Positions 1,786 through 46,837 of a stretch of 64,000 nucleotides of DNA are shown piece after piece (the stretch's first letter is position 1; each line of letters opens with the position of its first letter). The DNA comes from Pascua guehoae (Eukaryota > Basidiomycota > Tremellomycetes > Trichosporonales > Trichosporonaceae), in the NCBI GenBank assembly GCA_001600415.1, contig BCJX01000002.1:3055165-3119164 (forward strand). Reading direction: 5' to 3'. The translations under genes were made by a program, and so were the position numbers. The notes under the pieces were generated by a model that was not told where the DNA came from, did not search any database, and saw only the letters and a program-made list of their open reading frames with translations.

Positions 1786-4123
1786 TCAGAACCGAGGGGC
1801 GCCGGGAGCGCCTGGCGGAATCTCGAGCTTGGGTGGGTCCACCCAGCGCACAGTGTCCCATGCCCAGTAGCCCTGGATGTTAGTCGTGTCCACGGAGCGA
1901 TCAGGTAGATAAGACAGCAAGCACGTGTCATGGGCCATGTCGTGTTGCGTGGGATCGACGTGCCCAGGCCCACCTCTGGCTAAAGGCACACTCGCTACAC
2001 TGCCTCTCTTGCCCCTCGTGCACCTCAAACTCACCTTGCCAAGCTTATCGGGCCAGTCGTGACACCGGACCTTTTTGGGCGGCTCATCCAGCCATCCAAT
2101 CTTCTCCTTGTGCGCCTTGTCTGGGTGCGGAAAGTCGACCCAGCCACGTAGCCGCGCGTCGTCTTTGCCATACGTGAGATGGACGCCGGGGACGGTCTGG
2201 ATACGGCCAAAGCCATACTTCCAAAAGTCCCACGAGATGAACTGGCTCTCGCTCGCCTGGCACTCTTCCTCGCCCGGCTGCTGGTCGGGCCGGCGGGGCA
2301 CGCCGCGCCGGAAACGGACATTGTACGGCGGCAAAAAGGGCGTGGGGGACATGACGGCGATGCCGTTCCAGCCGCTGAAGACTTGGTAGGGCAGGTTGCG
2401 CACGTGGCGTTCGCGGGTGCCGGGCGAGTTGAGGAAGAGCTGTGGGTTAGCGTGGGGGTGGGGGAATGATGTGCGTGCGGTGTGTGGGGAAAGACGCGTC
2501 GGGGGGTGTTGGGGGGTGGTAGGCGATGTGGGCGTGGGGGCCGGGGCCTGGAAGAGATACAGTGCGGAGACCGAACAAGATGGGAAGCAAAGTGGGTGAG
2601 GGCTAGAGACTCCGACGGAAACACAACGTGACGGGTACGACGCCACCGTCATGTCCATGATCAGCGTCGTGTCGGGCCGGAGCCGCGACGCAGGCACTAT
2701 GTTGTGCGGACGCGTCTCCGCCCGCACTTTGGCTCTCTTCAACAGCATTCGGGCTCTCGTCGGGCACGTCGGTGCCGTCCACTGCCTTCGTGGACACGCC
2801 AGTCGTGTTGTGGACAACTGTCACTGTAGGGCAATGCCCGCGTGTGGAGCACTACCCTTTGACCCTCTCCAGCACGACCTCTTCCGAGGCTCTCCCGCAT
2901 CCGCAGAAACCCCTTTCGCTGCGACTCACCTTTTGGGGCAAGGGCTGGTCCTCCTCTGGTACCGGGAAGGGCGTGTAGAGATCGCCCGACATGTCGCGTC
3001 CGACCCAGCCGTCGTAAAACCACTTTCCTGCGTGGTCCCATCCGCACGTCATGTCTGCGTCCTGCCAAAAGTGCTGGTGGAGGAGCTCGAGAAAGTGGGT
3101 TGCGCTGAGATAGACGTCATTGTAGAAGACGACTGCCGACCAGGGGTGACCGTCTGGGGAGAGGTGTGGCGTGTCTGATGCAAAGATGGGTGCCATGGCA
3201 GCGTTGCGCATGTCGGCGAGGATTTCGATGCGGTGGCTGTGTTCCCAATCGACGGCGGGGAGATGGGTCTTGACAAAGATGTTTTCGGGCGGGACACCGA
3301 GGAAGAGGAGGTGGTCGCGCATGGCGCCTGCAATGAGTTCGCCCGCGCCGTCCTCAGAGGGACCTTCCATGAGACTAAAGACGAGTGTCTCGGGCCCCAA
3401 AAAGTCGGCGAGGACGGTCCATGCCGCAAACCAGTCTGCGAGCATGCCAGAGACCTGGCGACAGATGGTGACGAACAAGTAGCGCTTTTCGCCGCCCGCG
3501 ACCCACTCGCCAGTGTACTCGTCGACCTCGTCCTGGAGGTGTGCGTAGCGCTGCTGGAGCTCGGGGGTGAGGAAGGGGGGGAAGATGGGGCTGCCGAGCT
3601 TGTGTTCGCGGGGCACGGCCGGGGTGCGGTCCTTGATCTCGTTGAGCTGGGGGATGAGGCGGGCGAATGCCTCGTCGAGGCTGGGCAAGGGTCCCGTCTT
3701 GTACGTCTCGCCCCCGCTGTTTTGGGATGTGACGAGGCGCGACACGCCGCGCTGGTTGTACGTCCTGCCCGTGTCGTTTTGTGTCTTGAGCCGCGCGAGG
3801 TTGGGGCGGGGTACAGCCCCGCCCGACGCTCCCGCCCCCGACCCCGCGCCGCCGAGCCGACCGCGCGACGGCGCAGGCGCGTTGCGCGCAAGGTCAGACC
3901 ACCCGAACCGCGCCCGCCCACCGTCGCCAAAGATGGACCCAAACCACGACGGCTGCCCGTCACTCCCCGCCACGCCCGAGTCGCGCACCCCGCCACCCCC
4001 TCCTACCCGCCGCCCGCGCTCGCCCACCGTGCTCGCGTCCCATTGTCCGTCGTCGGCACCCCCCGCTCCCACCCAGAGCACGAGCGCGAACAGGCCGAGC
4101 GCGACGAGCGCAGCCCGCAGCAC
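1786..4123 (-). CDS. Alpha-1,3-mannosyltransferase-like protein, GT69 (CAP59/CMT1 family)
   Basis: Predicted type II Golgi glycosyltransferase of the CAP59/CMT1 family (GT69), which transfers mannose to capsule, wall or other surface glycans in tremellomycetes. Exons read as 2930-4123, 2035-2439 and 1786-1872 (minus strand), all phase 0, giving 561 aa. The N-terminus (MLRAALVALGLFALVLWVG) is a signal anchor followed by a low-complexity Gly/Ala/Arg stem. The family core follows: RYLFVTICRQVSGMLADW, SLMEGPSEDGA, VVFYNDVYLSATHFLELL, DMTCGWDHAGKWFYDGWVGRDMSGD and then, after the second junction, LPYQVFSGWNGIAVM with FISWDFW. The 490-nt second intron is long for this genome, but the join LPQK/LFLNSP matches the family without a missing block. 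A TATATA element lies about 95-105 bases upstream. Exact acceptor substrate cannot be told from sequence. Confidence 0.88.
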
Positions 4124-4227
4124 GGGGCGCGGTAGCCCGCCACCGCTGCCGCGCAGCCCGCGCGGGGAGACCGAGATGGAGGGAATGGTGGATGTAAGCG
4201 CCGGGGGCGGGGGGCGTAGGCCAGGCC

Positions 4228-4233
4228 TATATA
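4228..4233 (-). promoter_or_regulatory. TATA-like element upstream of the GT69 gene
   Basis: The sequence cctatataggg lies about 105 bases upstream of the ATG at 4123 on the minus strand. It is the only TATA-like element in that GC-rich stretch. This is a positional inference; the element is palindromic, so strand is assigned by context. Confidence 0.35.
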
Positions 4234-5916
4234 GGGGACGTGGGTGGGCGTATCGGTCGACCCACGGCGTTTGTGTCGAGGGTCAAAAGGTTGGGTCGGT
4301 GTTTGAGCAACCAAGCAACCAGGTGGGGTCGGGTTGGAGTTGGGAACGTGCCTGCCTGTGGCGATCGGGTATGGGCGGTGGAAAATCGAACAAGACAAAA
4401 GATAACCACTACTAGATTGAGAATGGATGTGTTGCAGTGTAATGGAGCATGTGTGGCCGTGTGGGATGATGGCGACGGCGAGGACGAGGACGAGGACGTG
4501 TCGAGTGGACAAATGAGGTGCAATGCGAAATGGCGACGAGGCGCAAGGGTGCCCGCCCACGCCGAGCGAGCGAGCCAAAGACAAGGCGACGGGGGTTCTG
4601 TGGCCTTGTGGCTCGTCCAAACGTAAAGGGGTGACGACTGCGACCGATGGAAAATCAACAATCACCTCCTTTGGTGCGTGGCGCAGCCCAGGCGCAGGCA
4701 GGCGCAGGCAGGCGCAGGTGCATTGCATTGCGCGCGCATGCGCAGGCGCGCAGGTACAGACAGGATGGCAGGATGCACCCCCTTCCCTCGTACTGGTAGC
4801 AGCAGTCTCTTACAAACTACTGCGCACTGGTGCACTTTTTTGTCCCTGGCCCCCTTCCTTTTTCCTGGGTACTGTAGACTTTTTTCCTCTCCCTTTCCCT
4901 TTGCGCCAGAGCCCTCGCCGCCGGGATCTCTGCGTCTGGCAATCGAAAAGTCGGAGTCGGAGGCGGGGGTTTGTTTCCAAAGCGTAATTGTATCAATTAC
5001 AAAGGTGCCTGGATTATTAATAGACAGGGCGCACAAGTGTTGCTGGCGGATTAGAACAGTCGCGAGCGATACCGCTACTGGTCCATGCCAAGCCAGTCTT
5101 GTGTGGTCACATGCATGTCGCAGCATGCCAGCACACTATGTCGCTCGTTCATTCCGAGATGCATGATGCACAGGTTTAAGGTATGCCTGCATCCAAAGTA
5201 GCGGCAGATGAATTGTGTGACCCCCTGCTAACATGCTAATCGCTTGGGGGTGCTTGTGTTTGCTGCGGCACGTGTCGGGTCGTCATGCGGCTGCGAGCTG
5301 CGCAGAGTAGAGTGTCGAGTGCCTGCCAGTCTCTGACGCTGCCAAGCGCATATCTCGTTCCTAGAACCCCCCCCCTTGCCCCTCTCCCCCTCGCGCGCTG
5401 CCCAGTTTGCTGGAAACAGTGCCATCCTCCGACCCAAAAGAGTCAGTTACCAGAACCGAGCCTGAAGATTAAACTCGCAGCTCGCATTGCCGCAGGCAGC
5501 AGGCTGCAGGCCGCAGGAGGCCAGGACTGTCGCCCACAGCAGCCCACTCCGCAGCGCAATGCGCAAAGCTCATGCATCACGCAGCCAGCACCCAGCAGGC
5601 AACCCGGATCTGCGGAATGCACAGCCAACGCACGTGGCCGCGGCCCCCGCAGCACACGACGTGCACAGCCCCCAGCTGGGTGCACACGCCCAGACGGGCC
5701 GAGCGCGCCGAGCGTGCCGAAGCTAGCGCGTGGTACAATTGTGCGGTGCAAGGTGTTTCGGACCGCATCGTAATGGCAGGGGCGCGGACAGGCCAAATGC
5801 TCGTGTCATGTCGGACCCTTTGGTGGTCGCCGCGTGCATGGGTCTGGGACGAGGCCGCCGTGGGCTGGTGGCGTGTGGCGTGTGGCGATTGGTATGTGGG
5901 GTGGGTAGTGGTTTGG

Positions 5917-5975
5917 GCAGTGGGTAGTGCCTAGTGGGTAGTGCCTAGTGGGTAGTGGCCAGTGGCCAGTGGATA
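5917..5975. repeat. Short tandem repeat (GTGGGTAGTGCCTA units)
   Basis: About four imperfect copies of a 14-15 base unit reading roughly GTGGGTAGTGCCTA, grading into GTGGCCAGTGG copies at the right end. It is non-coding and lies in the gene-poor stretch. Confidence 0.7.
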
Positions 5976-6654
5976 GCGAGCACTCACGACGACAGCCGAG
6001 AGGGTTCAACCAAGAGTACATGTGGGCAGGCCCGACCGCTCGAGGACGTCTGCATGTGGCACCGCCAACCGTTTAATACTCGGATGTCGGCGTCGGTCTG
6101 GCTGCTGGCTACGCTTGTCCAGAGGGTTCCGAGGACTTGGGTATAGACTGGCATTCTTAGGATATCCATGGTGGTCGCCTTGACCTCGCGGCGCCTCCAT
6201 GCCATGCGCGCTGGATCAGACATCCAAGAGCTGTGCGAGTGGTACGACTGGTGGCTGTGGCGGACAGGACTTATGCCAATGCGAACAGATGGACGGATAC
6301 ATTGCCGACGAGGCTAGCGGGGCAGGACACGATGGCACGGCCTTCATCAGCGCACATTTATTGGCGACCCTGGTGCCTCTGTTCCTCAGTTACAGGCCAC
6401 GGGCGTCGGTGACGACTCAAAGTGTCGCAGAAGGACGGGGACGCGTACGAGCTGATTGACCTGCCAGCACTCATGTCGACGCACGAACGCTGCCGAGCTC
6501 AGTGGTTCTGGCTTGCTGGACATGGTCGTGCTGACGTGCACGGCCAATGGTTTGGGTGCCATTTGATAGTGCCCGTTCACCTTGCGTTGGAGACGGATGG
6601 CTGCTCCTCCATGAACAACTGCACAACTGCAACCAGTCTATGACTGCACCACGC

Positions 6655-41264: not shown

Positions 41265-44200
41265 ATGCCGAGCGACGACAATCCCAGCCCCACCTTTGAC
41301 TGTTAGTCGCCGATAGAGGGAGGAGCCGTGCGCCACCATGGCACCCCACGGACATTGTCGCTGACCGCAGTGTTCGTCTATGGTACCCTAATGGTCCCAG
41401 CCATCCTCCTGAGGGTGGTGGGCCATGACGGTGCGAGTCTCAAGTTCCAGGATGCGTTGCTTTCGGTGAGTGATGGTGTGTTTGAGCGGGAGGGATGAGT
41501 GGTGTGATATGGATTGGCTGATGTGGTGGTGCGGCGTGGTGCTGATAAGGAACTCTGGTGAGGTTGTATTCTTCTGACACGCAGGACTTTACGCGTCATC
41601 ACGTCAAGGATGAGGACTACCCCGCCATTATCGGCAAAGAGCAACTAGGCGTTCTCCTCGGCGAGTCTGCGGTGTAAGTTTGAATGAAACGGCTCGTAGA
41701 ACCAGACGGACGCTACAGGTAGGCATTTACTGATAACAGCAAACTCACCCCTGACGAGTTGTCGACGCGCGGCACCCTCGTTTCCGGCCTTACCGCCATG
41801 GATATGAAACTCATCGACGTTTTCGAGTCGACTGTGAGTTATTCTGGATCCAATAGGCAGTCGTGTCTCCACCGTACAGCAACTAATGCATCAGGAATAC
41901 GCCCGAAAGGAGGTGACGGTGCAGACATTCAGCCAGCCCGCACCTCTCAGCGACCTGCCTCCTGAACTCCTGGACCCCGCAAAGCGCACCGCCAACCCCA
42001 AGGCGACAGGCAAGGCGAATGCCATCGTCTATCTCTGGACCGACCCTGTGGAGAGGCTCACCCCTGGCGTGTGGAGGTGAGTTATCTTCTGACGGGTGTG
42101 GGGTCTGCATCGTGCAGGCGGAATCGTCCGTTGCCATGGGTAATCGTGTGCAAGTTTGAGGGGCACAAGGGCTAAGTGCTTAAGATGTGGTGCACGGCAG
42201 TGGTCGATAATGATAACTAGACGAACGGAACATGTCGATAATCCAGAGAAAGGTTGGATAACTAACCTGTCCCAGCTTTGCAGAGTTCCTTCGCGACAAG
42301 GCGGCGGACTGGGCAGGCGCGTCCAACGAATACGCAGAGGTTGACGCTGCGCGCGAATCGACTCGGTTTGGTGTGGACGACGATGGTGTCGTCGGCCGCC
42401 GTGTTGAAGGGTTCCCCGACTTTGGACACAACATGAAGAAGTACTGGGGCTTTGGGGATGACTGTGAGCGGCTCATCAAACTTGTCGTATGACACAAGCT
42501 AATGCAATCCCAGGGGTCTGCACCAACCATGGTTAGTGTTTGGAAGCGTGCACTCGGACATTCACATCTACTACCTCGAACCTACTGCCTGGAGCAATGT
42601 CGCCGGTGCCCCCCTACATGTATTCGATCGAACGCCAACTGACACACACAGGCTCATACGGTTCGCCACCTCTTCCTGTCGTCGAGGCGCGGGAGAAGCT
42701 CGCACGCGAGATTGACCAGCGCGTAGACGTCTGGATGCGTCGTAAGATTGAGCCCATGCTGGACCAGGTGCGCGCCGACCTTGCCCCGATTGTGAATGCA
42801 GACCGCGACGAGGTCGTCATTGTGCCCAACGCGACGCATGGGATCAACACCATTGCGACCAACATTGACTTTAACGATGGGGACATTATCGTTGTCTGTG
42901 AGTAGGTTGGGGCCTGTGTGCAGAAGGTTGAGGGTAGTGTCTAGTTGTGTGCGGAGGGTGGTTGCGGCGAGCTGGGTGTGAGGCAGAGTGCTCCAACTTT
43001 CTTCGGCGGATCCCCAGCTGACCTCAGACGCGTCAACCTACGGCGCCGTCTCGCAAACGATGAAGTACCTGTGCGACCGACACCCGCGTATCCGCCTCGA
43101 GGTGGTCCTCGTGACCTTCCCGTGCCTGCATGCGGACATTGTCAAGGCGACCGAGGCCGTGTTGGCAAAGTACAACCAGCCGACGGGGCGGGTGCGCGGC
43201 GGTGACGCTCCTGCGTCGCCGACGGGCGTCACGGCCGACGAGCGCGTGCGCCTGCTCGTCATTGACTCGATCGCGTCCACCCCAGGCGTCATCTATCCGT
43301 GGGAGCAGGTCGTGGGCCTGTGCCACCAATACGGCGTGCTTTCGCTCGTCGACGCGGCCCACTCGATCGGCCAGCACCATGTGGACCTGCACAAGACGGA
43401 CCCAGACTTTTTCGTCACAAACTGCCACAAGTGGCTCACGTCGTGCGTTTGGCTTACTACTCACTCCCCCTTCGCTGCCCACCTGCTGACAACGCAGACA
43501 CCGAGGCGCGGCCCTCATGTACGTGCCCTTCCGGAACCAGCGGCTCGTCCGCTCGTCCTTCCCCACGGGCCACTTTTACGAGTCGGAGCGATACCCCACC
43601 GAGGGCGGTAACCACCCGTGGACGTTTGCGCGCCAGGTGAGTTTGGCGAGCACGTACCCGGCCATCGCATAGCAAACGGAGCATCGGAAAAGGCGCGTAG
43701 CAAGTCGTCCGTGTCGAAAGAAACGGAGTGACGCGGCGCCTAGTGGCCTTCCCCCACGCTACCATCCTCTGTCTATCGTTGCCCAAACGCACACGCCGAC
43801 CTTCCCCAACCCCACTTGCATTCAGCAACTCAACCAATCCCCTCCACAACCAACACAACCACTCCGCCGACGATTGCTAACCACCCTAGTACTCGTGGAA
43901 CGGGACGGCCGACTTTACATCCTTCCTGACAGTATCGGACGCGATCCGTTTCCGCCAGCGCATCGGCGGCGAGGACCGCATCATTGCATACAACCACTCG
44001 CTGGCGGTCGCGGGCGCCAAGCGCGTCGCCAAGCGCTGGGGCTCGCGCTGGATGGAGAATGACAAGTGCGAGCTGACGGCGTGTATGGTGAGTTGGAGTT
44101 GGGTGGGGTTTGTGGGCATAGTGACAGATCGCACTGGGGAGGGGGGACTTTCCTGACATTGAATACCTCTCCCTTCGAGCAGTGTACCACAAAGTGGGGT

Positions 44201-44755
44201 GCAAGGACCAGATTGCCTCCCACCGCATCCAGTCTCCCACACCAGACCCTGGTTTGGACAACCTGCCTCGCGTAGCCACAATCATCTCCCTCTCCCGTCT
44301 CCCACCGCCACAATCCCTCTCCCTTTCCCCTCTCTCCCCCTCCCTCTCCTTCCTTGCCCCCNNNNNNNNNNNNNNNNNNNNNNNNNNNNNNNNNNNNNNN
44401 NNNNNNNNNNNNNNNNNNNNNNNNNNNNNNNNNNNNNNNNNNNNNNNNNNNNNNNNNNNNNCCCCCCCCCCAACCTCTTCCCCACTAACAAGCCCAGTTC
44501 AACATCCAGCTCCCGCGCGTCCCCGTCCCAACGGACACGTACGAGCTCGCCCAGCTCCAGCGCTTCATGGAAGACACTCTGATGTACGAGTACTCTACCT
44601 TTGCGTCGCCGTACATCCACAACGGCAGCTGGTGGGTCCGGTTCAGCGCCCAGGTGTGGGTCGAGCTCGGCGACTTCGACTATGTCGCCGACGCCTACCT
44701 CGACATTATCGAGCGTGTCGCAAAGGGAGAGTATCGGAATGCCGTGCCGTTGTAG
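41265..44755 (+). CDS. Fusion protein: AIG2-like (GGACT/GGCT-type) domain + class V PLP enzyme (isopenicillin N epimerase-like)
   Basis: Twelve exons (41265-41301, 41371-41465, 41585-41673, 41740-41833, 41895-42076, 42276-42463, 42514-42531, 42652-42897, 43028-43442, 43498-43636, 43890-44087, 44498-44755) join with every phase consistent into 652 aa. Residues 1-200: AIG2-like cyclotransferase fold (LFVYGTLMVPAILLRV, YPAIIGKEQ, RGTLVSGLTAMDMKLIDVFES, EYARKEVTV, AIVYLW, FAEFLRDKAADW). Residues 220-650: fold-type I class V aminotransferase of the isopenicillin N epimerase / cysteine desulfurase type (FGHNMKKYWGFGDDW, CTNHGSYGSPPLPVVEARE, PNATHGINTIATNI, STYGAVSQTMKYL, LLVIDSIASTPGVIYPW, LVDAAHSIGQHHVDL, PLP Lys in TNCHKWLTS, HRGAALMYVPF, SWNGTADFTSFLTV). 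The last intron holds the second assembly gap. In known families AIG2 domains act on gamma-glutamyl amines, and relatives of the PLP part include C-S lyases. The joint reaction is unknown. Confidence 0.85.
44362..44461. other. Assembly gap (100 N) in an intron of the fusion gene
   Basis: Fixed-length gap between CCTTGCCCCC on the left and a CCCCCCCCCC run on the right. It falls in the last intron (44088-44497), so it does not interrupt coding sequence in this model. Confidence 0.9.
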
Positions 44756-45083: not shown

Positions 45084-46837
45084 CTAGTGCGCGGGAGCAG
45101 GCGGCGCAGGCGGTGCAGCCGCCGCGACCGCGGGGGCGGAGGAGGAGGGTGCGACTGTGGTTGTGCCCGGCACGGTCGACGTCCCGGCCAATGCGACATC
45201 GCCATCACCGACGGCGGCGGCGGTATCTGCTCCAGCTCCGGCTCCGGCTCCAGCCCCTGCCTCCCGCCGTCCGCTCCAGTACAGCCTGCCCGCAACCTCA
45301 CCCACGACCCAGTCGAGGCCGTCGTCGAGACCCGCGCCCGTGATGGCCGAGCAGGGGACGATGCGCCACTTGTGCGAGTCGATCGTGTCGAGTCCCAGGG
45401 CCTGGTGTTAGTGGCGGTAAACTGATTGTTGACAGGAGAAAGGAATAGCAGTGTCTCTAGCAGTGTCTCTCTCTCTTCACCCCGCACACCAAATACACCT
45501 TCCCGGTTAACACGCCTATCCCCCCCCCCCGCTGACCCGACCAACTCACATCCCGAATCTCATCCACACCAAGGGACCCTTCCAAGTCCTGCTTGTTTGC
45601 AAACACGAGCAGCGTCGCGCCCGCCAGGCGCTCCTCGCTCAGCAGGACGCGGAGCTCGGCGGCGCCGTCGCCCATGCGCAGCGCGTCCGAGCTGTCGACG
45701 ACCCAGACGACGGCGTCGGTCGACTCGAAATAGTTGCGCCAGTACGGGCGGAGCGTGCGTTGGCCGCCGACGTCCCCTGATGTCAGCCGTGTTGGGGGCG
45801 AGGGGAAGGGTTTGTGTTGGCGGGGGCAATGAGGTGAGAATGGGGAGGTGGGAAGGGGACGCCAGAAGCAGGGATGAGGGAGGAAGCAGGTTAGATGAGC
45901 AGCAGAGGGATAGAGAGTGGACCAGGGCGGGGAAGTAGGGAAAGAGTGGAGGGGTGGGAGATGGCGGGCTGATGAAGGCGAGCCCATGTAGCCATAAGGA
46001 CTAACGCTGAGGAGGTTGGGGGGATGAGAAGAACCAGGAGGGTCCCAGAGCGATGTCAACCTTCGACGAGTGCCCGGGTCGACAGCAAGCCCCAACATGA
46101 ACACAGTCAATACACATCGATGTCGCTCTAGCCGTCCAGGGCCTTCCTCAACCCAGCTCATCCCAACCCCTTCTCCAGACTCATCCCCAACCCAGCCCAA
46201 TACCCAGCCCAATACCCAGCCCAACCCCAGCCTCAAACCCCATCCTAAGAGACACATTGACGCACAGACATTGAGTGTGTACTCGCCGCGCACGAGGCTC
46301 ATAATATTAAACCCGAGTGTAGGAGAGACCGACTTGATGTCGCCGCCCGTCACGCGTTTGAGAATCGTCGTCTTGCCCGCGTTGTCGAGGCCGCTGTTGG
46401 CGACGTAGATATGTCCCGGGGGGCGGGTTCAGAGGGAGAGTCGGCAAGTAGGGAAGTGGAGTTTGGTAGAGGGACGAGGGGCAAGGACGAGCCCGGGTTA
46501 GGCGAGAGGAGCACATGCAAATGGGTTCGAACGTTGCGGGCAGTATTGGCGAGAGTAACATGACGAATATGACGCGCGATGGGATGGTGGCGATAACAAG
46601 TACAGCGTCAGCGATGGCCCAGGGCCTGAACTGTCCTCTGACCAACGTCGACTCACAGGAAAAGGACGCGCATCTCACGCGCCTTGGCCTTGTTCTTCCG
46701 GATGATTGTGAGGAGGCCTGCGTGTGAGCGCGTGCGTGAGGGCGCTAAGAGGGAGGTGCAAGTGGAAGGGAGGCGGCGCCAGCTGATGCAGGTCGAGGTG
46801 TAAGGGGCTGATATGTGTGTAATTTCGACGTACCCAT
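45084..46837 (-). CDS. ARL2: ARF-like GTPase Arl2 with low-complexity C-terminal extension
   Basis: Small GTPase that works with tubulin-folding cofactors in microtubule biogenesis. Exons on the minus strand: 46834-46837 (only ATGG), 46657-46717, 46266-46393, 45550-45776, 45084-45401; all phases agree, 245 aa. It reads [35 protein letters not shown] (no myristoylation-type start context beyond Gly2, typical of Arl2; P-loop GLDNAGKT), [11 protein letters not shown] (switch I), [30 protein letters not shown] (switch II), [22 protein letters not shown] (NKQD), and [33 protein letters not shown]. Normal Arl2 ends at this point (about 185 aa). Here about 60 more residues of Ala/Gly/Thr/Pro follow ([11 protein letters not shown] … PPAPPAPAH). 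Intron 3 is about 490 nt. Start is set by the 4-nt first coding exon. Confidence 0.9.

Follow-up and report, generated by a model that had tools for sequence, protein, structure and literature searches.

What does a fungus gain from joining a gamma-glutamyl cyclotransferase to an enzyme that depends on pyridoxal phosphate (PLP)? The question is raised by a 652-codon fusion gene at positions 41265-44755 (+) of a 64,000-nucleotide stretch of Pascua guehoae DNA (contig BCJX01000002.1; this whole stretch is called the window), which encodes an AIG2/GGACT-type gamma-glutamyl cyclotransferase domain and then, in frame, a class-V PLP enzyme. We propose tentatively, at somewhat short of even confidence, that the product is a bifunctional Egt2 of ergothioneine synthesis, whose AIG2 part would unblock the substrate of the lyase. 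The architecture, its recurrence, the kept catalytic residues, the Egt1-like pieces in the same genome and the single Egt2-like locus found there are observations.

Rebuilt from the DNA, the coding sequence comprises 12 exons and 1959 nt (652 codons plus stop); all 11 introns are of the GT..AG type and the phases are compatible at every junction. A preliminary description of the locus had claimed phase agreement at eleven junctions over 652 codons, one exon coding for both the AIG2 end and the PLP enzyme start, an 18-nt micro-exon completing the NHGSYG motif, an internal Met at 42433, a stop at 42534-42536 and a single polypeptide, and in all of this it was correct. The shared exon is exon 6 (42276..42463, +), which carries the last AIG2 helices (W178), the linker EVDAAR.. 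and the N-terminus of the PLP enzyme, GFPDFGHNMKKYWGF. The micro-exon 7 (42514..42531, +; VCTNHG) is followed by the TAG at 42534-42536, and the exon 9 acceptor at 43028 keeps the reading frame and gives the '-STYGA-' motif. Pfam recognizes both domains in the one protein: GGACT (PF06094) at residues 13-153 with 33 bits (cut-off 22.8), Aminotran_5 (PF00266) with 78.4 bits (cut-off 21.5) and Aminotran_1_2 with 24.2 bits (cut-off 19.7). The AIG2 half is 53% identical over 197 aa to the database protein P0001 from Vanrija, the PLP half 65% identical over 440 aa to P0007 from Cutaneotrichosporon; among the matches listed these two genera provide the nearest relatives, and the proteins nearest to that of the window have the two-domain order that the preliminary description had suggested looking for in close relatives.

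The gene could alternatively give rise to two transcripts and no fused protein, namely an AIG2 mRNA ending at a stop in intron 6 or intron 7, both of which contain in-frame stops if retained, and a PLP mRNA translated from Met219 (ATG at 42433), the only Met near the start of the PLP enzyme. This Met lies within the conserved FGHNM motif, and a start there would drop FGHN, of which F215 and G216 are kept in 38/40 and 40/40 fused PLP rows, respectively. Since, moreover, the AIG2 end shares exon 6 with the conserved PLP N-terminus and homologues from many separate genomes have the same domain order, two transcripts can hardly be the explanation, and the fusion in one polypeptide is virtually certain.

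The PLP half probably is an Egt2-type C-S lyase, as judged from its relatives. Among solved proteins Egt2 matches it best by sequence (229.8 bits), followed by the LolT entries 8dl5, 9aza and 9azb, and a model of the fused homologue P0007 (664 aa; predicted local distance difference test 91.1, predicted template modelling score 0.82) likewise has Egt2 as first and LolT as second fold match. Calculated with partial PDB sequences, the identity of the PLP half is 32% to Egt2 (244 bits) versus 28% to LolT (184 bits), the latter being a PLP-dependent Mannich cyclase with different chemistry. With fungal Egt2 the PLP half has in common the fold, the catalytic Lys and Tyr and the N-terminal NHGS(Y/F)G motif; unlike the window protein, Egt2 has no AIG2 domain. 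The earlier remark that the relatives include C-S lyases such as the ergothioneine enzyme thus proved apt, and the designation 'isopenicillin N epimerase-type' is not the best name. CefD (isopenicillin N epimerase) was absent from the NCBIfam matches, the solved-sequence matches and the 50 fold matches listed, which does not exclude a kinship with CefD. On the fusion protein the model of bacterial EgtE (TIGR04343) scores 40.6 bits, below its curated cut-off of 400, and the top NCBIfam model, SufS, 59.6 bits against a cut-off of 475.1; 0 of 20 matches reach their cut-off.

The PLP enzyme continues through exon 8 (42652..42897, +), exon 9 (43028..43442, +), which codes for Tyr321, Asp425 and Lys451, exon 10 (43498..43636, +), exon 11 (43890..44087, +) and exon 12 (44498..44755, +), which codes for the C-terminus with Arg615 in WVRFSAQVW and ends with the stop codon. 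Lys451, Tyr321, Asp425 and Arg615 align with Egt2 Lys247, Tyr134, Asp221 and Arg438, and their equivalents are kept in at least 39 of 40 fused and at least 31 of 33 solo rows (within the fused ones the catalytic Lys in 39/40 and the Tyr in 40/40). A Y134F mutant of Egt2 is named in PDB entry titles; beyond this mutant, the roles of Lys247 and Tyr134 are those that we presume for the enzyme, and we take the Egt2 structures 5uts, 5v12 and 5v1x to be from Neurospora crassa.

The AIG2 half is, by its fold and residues, predicted with good confidence to be catalytically active. Exon 1 (41265..41301, +) contains the start codon (MPSD.., the same start as in Vanrija P0001), exon 2 (41371..41465, +) the YGTL loop (residues 16-19), exon 3 (41585..41673, +) the stretch TRHHV..YPA with Y56 and P57, exon 4 (41740..41833, +) the presumed catalytic Glu103 in DVFES, and exon 5 (41895..42076, +) the stretch EYARKEV (Y107, R109), a variable insert and the YLW strand. 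Glu103 is kept in 73/74 fused proteins, Tyr107 and Arg109 in 74/74. The fold is of the GGCT type, and the solved folds matched include human GGACT, of which the PDB has a structure with bound 5-oxoproline (3juc) and one of the mutant E82Q; the catalytic role of the Glu103-type Glu is presumed. PF06094, the YGTL loop, the presumed catalytic Glu and the fold are common to the fungal domain and to the AIG2/GGACT cyclotransferases At5g39720 and At3g28950 of Arabidopsis and human GGACT. These are proteins of one domain, whereas the fungal unit continues at its C-terminus into an additional helical tail that ends in a linker (EVDRRR.M.G or similar), which the free-standing fungal copies P0149, P0153, P0156 and P0157 also have. 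The EgtC model TIGR03442 has no match in the window fusion protein; the AIG2 half may work like EgtC but is not EgtC. In the AIG2 domains of Rhodotorula, Sporobolomyces and Rhodosporidiobolus (P0124-P0152) Leu, Phe or Val mostly takes the place of His49, and the presumed catalytic Glu is kept; these domains possibly have a different gamma-glutamyl substrate.

How widespread the fusion is was followed in protein listings that were word-based; the counts are lower bounds and no census, and a lineage seen without the fusion may still have one. A search with residues 1-200, restricted to proteins of 0.55-1.75 times the full fusion length, returned 6 proteins, all 6 with a PLP enzyme behind the AIG2 domain. 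The PLP half matched 278 proteins, the best 120 of which were listed; of the 120 database proteins retrieved up to this point, 40 have both domains according to hidden Markov models built from seven sequences. A third search, with the AIG2 part of a Leucosporidium protein trimmed to make shorter as well as fused proteins eligible, yielded 43 proteins, fused in Rhodotorula (toruloides, mucilaginosa and others), Sporobolomyces, Rhodosporidiobolus, Microbotryum, Mixia and others, and AIG2-only in Melanogaster, Plicaturopsis and further contigs. The 162 database proteins (165 rows with the window and two PDB rows) comprise 73 with both domains, 80 with the PLP enzyme only and 9 with AIG2 only. Three of the 73 (P0146, P0147 and P0160) have a partial PLP part only, and three of the 9 (P0143, P0161 and P0162) look like gene models broken in an intron, leaving about six credible single AIG2 genes. 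The fusion occurs in Tremellomycetes, Rhizoctonia/Ceratobasidium, Ramaria/Hysterangium and Microbotryomycetes such as Rhodotorula toruloides; among the other Agaricomycetes retrieved, many have a PLP enzyme without AIG2, and in a few AIG2 is a separate gene. Relatives with separate genes had been named in the preliminary description as an argument against a single polypeptide: separate AIG2 genes do exist in other Agaricomycetes, but the proteins closest to that of the window are fused.

For the history of the fusion a tree was calculated from 75 PLP domains chosen from 156 available (40 fused, 33 solo and two PDB outgroups). It largely follows accepted classes: Microbotryomycetes plus Mixia (fused), Ustilago plus one relative (solo), Tremellomycetes (21 fused, 4 solo), Calocera plus Botryobasidium (solo), Rhizoctonia/Ceratobasidium and kin (4 fused, 1 solo), Ramaria/Hysterangium and kin (3 fused, Gautieria solo) and Sistotremastrum plus the 19 remaining Agaricomycetes (solo). 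The metagenome protein P0112 (solo) stands outside all others and the metagenome protein P0099 (fused) at the base of the Agaricomycete part. In this tree, calculated without shiitake Lecsl2 and Grifola Egt2, the window domain lies within one 73-row group (100/99) opposite Egt2 and LolT. The label fused or solo changes at least 9 times, six of the changes being forced by well-supported branches, and from the PLP tree alone gain and loss of the fusion cannot be told apart.

The AIG2 tree (44 rows, 38 fused and six AIG2-only, midpoint root; P0005 and P0024 were left out for their damaged N-termini) has blocks that resemble those of the PLP tree, namely Tremellomycetes (100/98), most Pucciniomycotina (Mixia apart) and Agaricomycetes. 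All but one of the six AIG2-only proteins are neighbours of fused Agaricomycete proteins (97/92); the exception, P0159, is placed elsewhere on a very long branch. P0149, P0153, P0156 and P0157 end soon after the linker motif, which many fused proteins have ahead of the PLP enzyme. The solo paralogues P0018 (Cutaneotrichosporon cavernicola) and P0028 (C. spelunceum) are nested in the fused clade, where fused P0002 is their sister (100/100); the two species also yield a fused protein (P0005 and P0007); P0028 retains a stretch like the linker of the fused form and P0018 a more worn version. Because the blocks are similar in both trees and these solo proteins are nested with linker remnants, an old fusion with later loss or splitting is favoured. 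P0018 has the motif NHGSLGF, most relatives NHGSYG.

What could the two halves do together? A PLP-dependent C-S lyase acts only on a cysteinyl substrate whose alpha-amine is free, and a gamma-glutamyl group at this position blocks it. In shiitake the transpeptidase acts before the C-S lyase; GliI of gliotoxin formation is, we presume, a PLP-dependent C-S lyase. In gliotoxin synthesis the gamma-glutamyl cyclotransferase GliK (PMC5066259, in excerpt) removes gamma-Glu, after which GliJ and then GliI, called ACC-synthase-like, act (PMC12472470, in excerpt). The sulfur odorants of shiitake are attributed to both a gamma-glutamyl transpeptidase and a C-S lyase; the lyase Lecsl2 resembles fungal Egt2 and produced ergothioneine in vitro, though in low amounts (PMC11677154, in excerpt). 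Both systems pair a gamma-Glu remover with a PLP-type enzyme in one fungal pathway, unlike the fusion as separate proteins, with GliJ between them in gliotoxin, and with other substrates. In mycobacteria, according to excerpted accounts, EgtC removes gamma-Glu ahead of the PLP-dependent C-S lyase EgtE, the same order as proposed here; EgtC is an N-terminal nucleophile hydrolase (class II amidotransferase) that releases glutamate and is separate from EgtE, whereas the fusion has a GGCT-type fold, is expected to release 5-oxoproline and is tethered to the lyase.

Because known pathways strip gamma-Glu before such a PLP step, we propose that the AIG2 half unmasks the substrate of the lyase. It would remove gamma-Glu as 5-oxoproline from gamma-glutamyl-hercynylcysteine sulfoxide, an equivalent compound or a gamma-glutamylcysteine precursor whenever Egt1 had used gamma-glutamylcysteine, be it as main route or as repair of a side product. 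The Egt2 half would then, through an aldimine with its free alpha-amine, convert hercynylcysteine sulfoxide to ergothioneine, pyruvate and ammonia. An unrelated fold, tethered to the enzyme of the following step, would thus take the part of bacterial EgtC. That both activities are present, that they share a substrate and that it is channelled we infer; that the AIG2 half acts on a gamma-glutamylated form of the lyase substrate we hold slightly more hesitantly than the bifunctional enzyme as such. The suggestion in the preliminary description that gamma-Glu is removed before the freed sulfur amino acid is acted upon is supported as logic.

The genome (33.6 Mb, 28 contigs), which its introns and relatives mark as that of a basidiomycete yeast, was searched for the remainder of the pathway. 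Contig 23 has, in order and unspliced, Egt1-type pieces for the histidine methyltransferase (PF10017), DinB_2 and FGE-sulfatase. Four Egt2-type queries led to the window gene only, no second Egt2-like gene being found among the best candidates, which alone were scored; other Aminotran_5 loci are present, none picked up by these queries. PF06094 had no match in the six-frame translation, not even in the window gene, a result that is uninformative on other AIG2 genes because the domain is split over several exons. There are matches to gamma-glutamylcysteine synthetase, to one ChaC and to several gamma-glutamyl transpeptidases. The sole TIGR03442 (EgtC) match found is a class II amidotransferase on contig 9 (C9:488500-491000, open reading frame 631-1368 minus) with 68.9 bits against a cut-off of 218.65; we take it to be probably of the Dug3 type, another enzyme that could remove gamma-glutamyl groups. 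The Egt1-type gene (C23:110500-120400, open reading frames 3685-5100 and 5552-6646) has a long Ser/Thr/Gln-rich low-complexity insert in its methyltransferase part, and long inserts in this domain are also known from Ustilago maydis (PMC4020840, in excerpt).

Several points speak against our proposal. For the sulfoxide-synthase piece the scores with OvoA (128.1 bits) and SenA (122.3 bits) exceed that with EgtB (107.8 bits), all below cut-off, and its best solved matches are EgtB-IV and 5-histidylcysteine sulfoxide synthase (the phmmer matches to 6o6l and 4x8b cover only the later part of the Egt1-type query), from which we lean towards cysteine as donor. An excerpt of PMC9103826 reports a 62-fold preference of NcEgt1, apparently for cysteine over gamma-glutamylcysteine (the compound numbers in the passage are inconsistent), and a strong preference of an OvoA for cysteine; the fungi studied are described, in the excerpts available, as being without EgtC and using cysteine. 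Among the proteins retrieved, the one named Ustilago protein (P0116) is a solo PLP enzyme (no search was made for a separate Ustilago AIG2 gene) and its class includes strong ergothioneine producers; a fused AIG2 part therefore seems not to be required, and the AIG2 half would be at most a helper, for repair or a second donor, unless a separate AIG2 gene fills in. Co-expression of an Egt2 homologue of Aspergillus fumigatus in yeast lowered ergothioneine (PMC9502471, in excerpt). Fused and solo PLP domains (40 and 33 rows) have no separating column at the 70% level; candidate specificity-determining columns were rejected on this ground, and the two forms therefore probably catalyze the same reaction. 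Finally, His49, present in 41/41 of a first fused set, is kept in only 48/74 once the Microbotryomycetes are added, so that the AIG2 pocket is in part not the same in all classes; this count left our estimate unchanged, as the YGTL loop and the presumed catalytic Glu stand.

A bolder form of our proposal, which we regard as unlikely, is that the fusion is an overlooked basidiomycete analogue of EgtC, that Egt1 can run on gamma-glutamylcysteine, and that the tethered two steps yield 5-oxoproline and ergothioneine. If this were true, the notion of a universal fungal bypass of gamma-glutamylcysteine would be wrong for much of the phylum, where synthesis of ergothioneine and of glutathione would then compete or cross-talk. 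The AIG2 domain could also serve substrate supply, splitting gamma-glutamylcysteine from glutathione turnover into 5-oxoproline and cysteine for Egt1, with the PLP half an ordinary Egt2; the fusion would then tie sulfur supply to the pathway rather than combine two successive steps. The AIG2/GGCT fold is known for release of free amino compounds, and the cysteine use of NcEgt1 fits, but a tether to Egt2 instead of Egt1 makes little sense for providing cysteine, and ChaC and the several transpeptidases could handle glutathione turnover; we regard supply as quite unlikely.

Equally doubtful is that the AIG2 half is catalytic with an unrelated substrate (gamma-glutamylamines, gamma-glutamyl-lysine), or mainly structural or oligomerising, an old accident kept in some lineages. 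The repeated changes of the fused label on the PLP tree and the free-standing Agaricomycete genes indicate a part that can be separated or lost, human GGACT is among the folds matched and His49 is not kept across classes; against this, the halves are in frame in Microbotryomycetes and Mixia, Tremellomycetes and some Agaricomycetes, with Glu103, Tyr107 and Arg109 almost invariant. About as doubtful is a role outside ergothioneine synthesis, in which removal of gamma-Glu would be followed by C-S cleavage of S-substituted cysteine sulfoxides, as for lentinic acid, or of glutathione-derived conjugates. We know of no sulfur-volatile biology of yeasts of this kind, and the Egt1-like pieces together with the lack of a second Egt2-like gene among those found make ergothioneine the simplest job, notwithstanding the shiitake pairing of transpeptidase and Lecsl2 and the series GliK, GliJ, GliI.

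That the pairing recurs across several classes of a single fungal phylum points to a possible two-step reaction, one hitherto considered dispensable in fungi. Fused proteins were found in both R. toruloides and R. mucilaginosa, each an ergothioneine producer (for the former according to an excerpt). RtEGT2 (RHTO_04309), over-expressed in R. toruloides, may well be this two-domain protein, with P0140 as the candidate. Practically this matters since engineers pick Egt2 genes by homology. The cyclotransferase-Egt2-like fusion occurs in ergothioneine-making Rhodotorula and in Tremellomycetes, and a single protein with two substrates would suffice for a sharp test of the claim; lineages in which the domains are fused, those in which they are split and those that lack AIG2 form a natural experiment on the role of the extra domain. 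The preliminary description knew of no described enzyme of such composition. No paper describing an AIG2-Egt2 combination was found in the literature searched, most subscription journals being outside it, and to this extent the statement stands; the architecture as such is recurrent and already annotated in tens of public genomes under neutral names, often 'hypothetical protein' or 'PLP-dependent transferase', and for fused P0025 as hercynylcysteine S-oxide lyase.

Some proteins retrieved have unusual compositions. P0030 (Tetrapyrgos nigripes, 916 aa) has two tandem PLP domains (22-446 and 469-908), a duplication or a merged gene model. In P0158 (Astraeus odoratus, 585 aa) AIG2 is joined to a metallophosphatase domain and in P0100 (Rhizoctonia, 835 aa) the fusion is joined to a PITH domain; both are probably run-on gene models. 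In the window itself, a 100-N gap (44362-44461) lies in a C/T-rich stretch of intron 11, outside the coding sequence, and downstream a gene piece of an Arf-family small GTPase (PF00025, 133 bits; 45460-46428, -) converges on the fusion gene.

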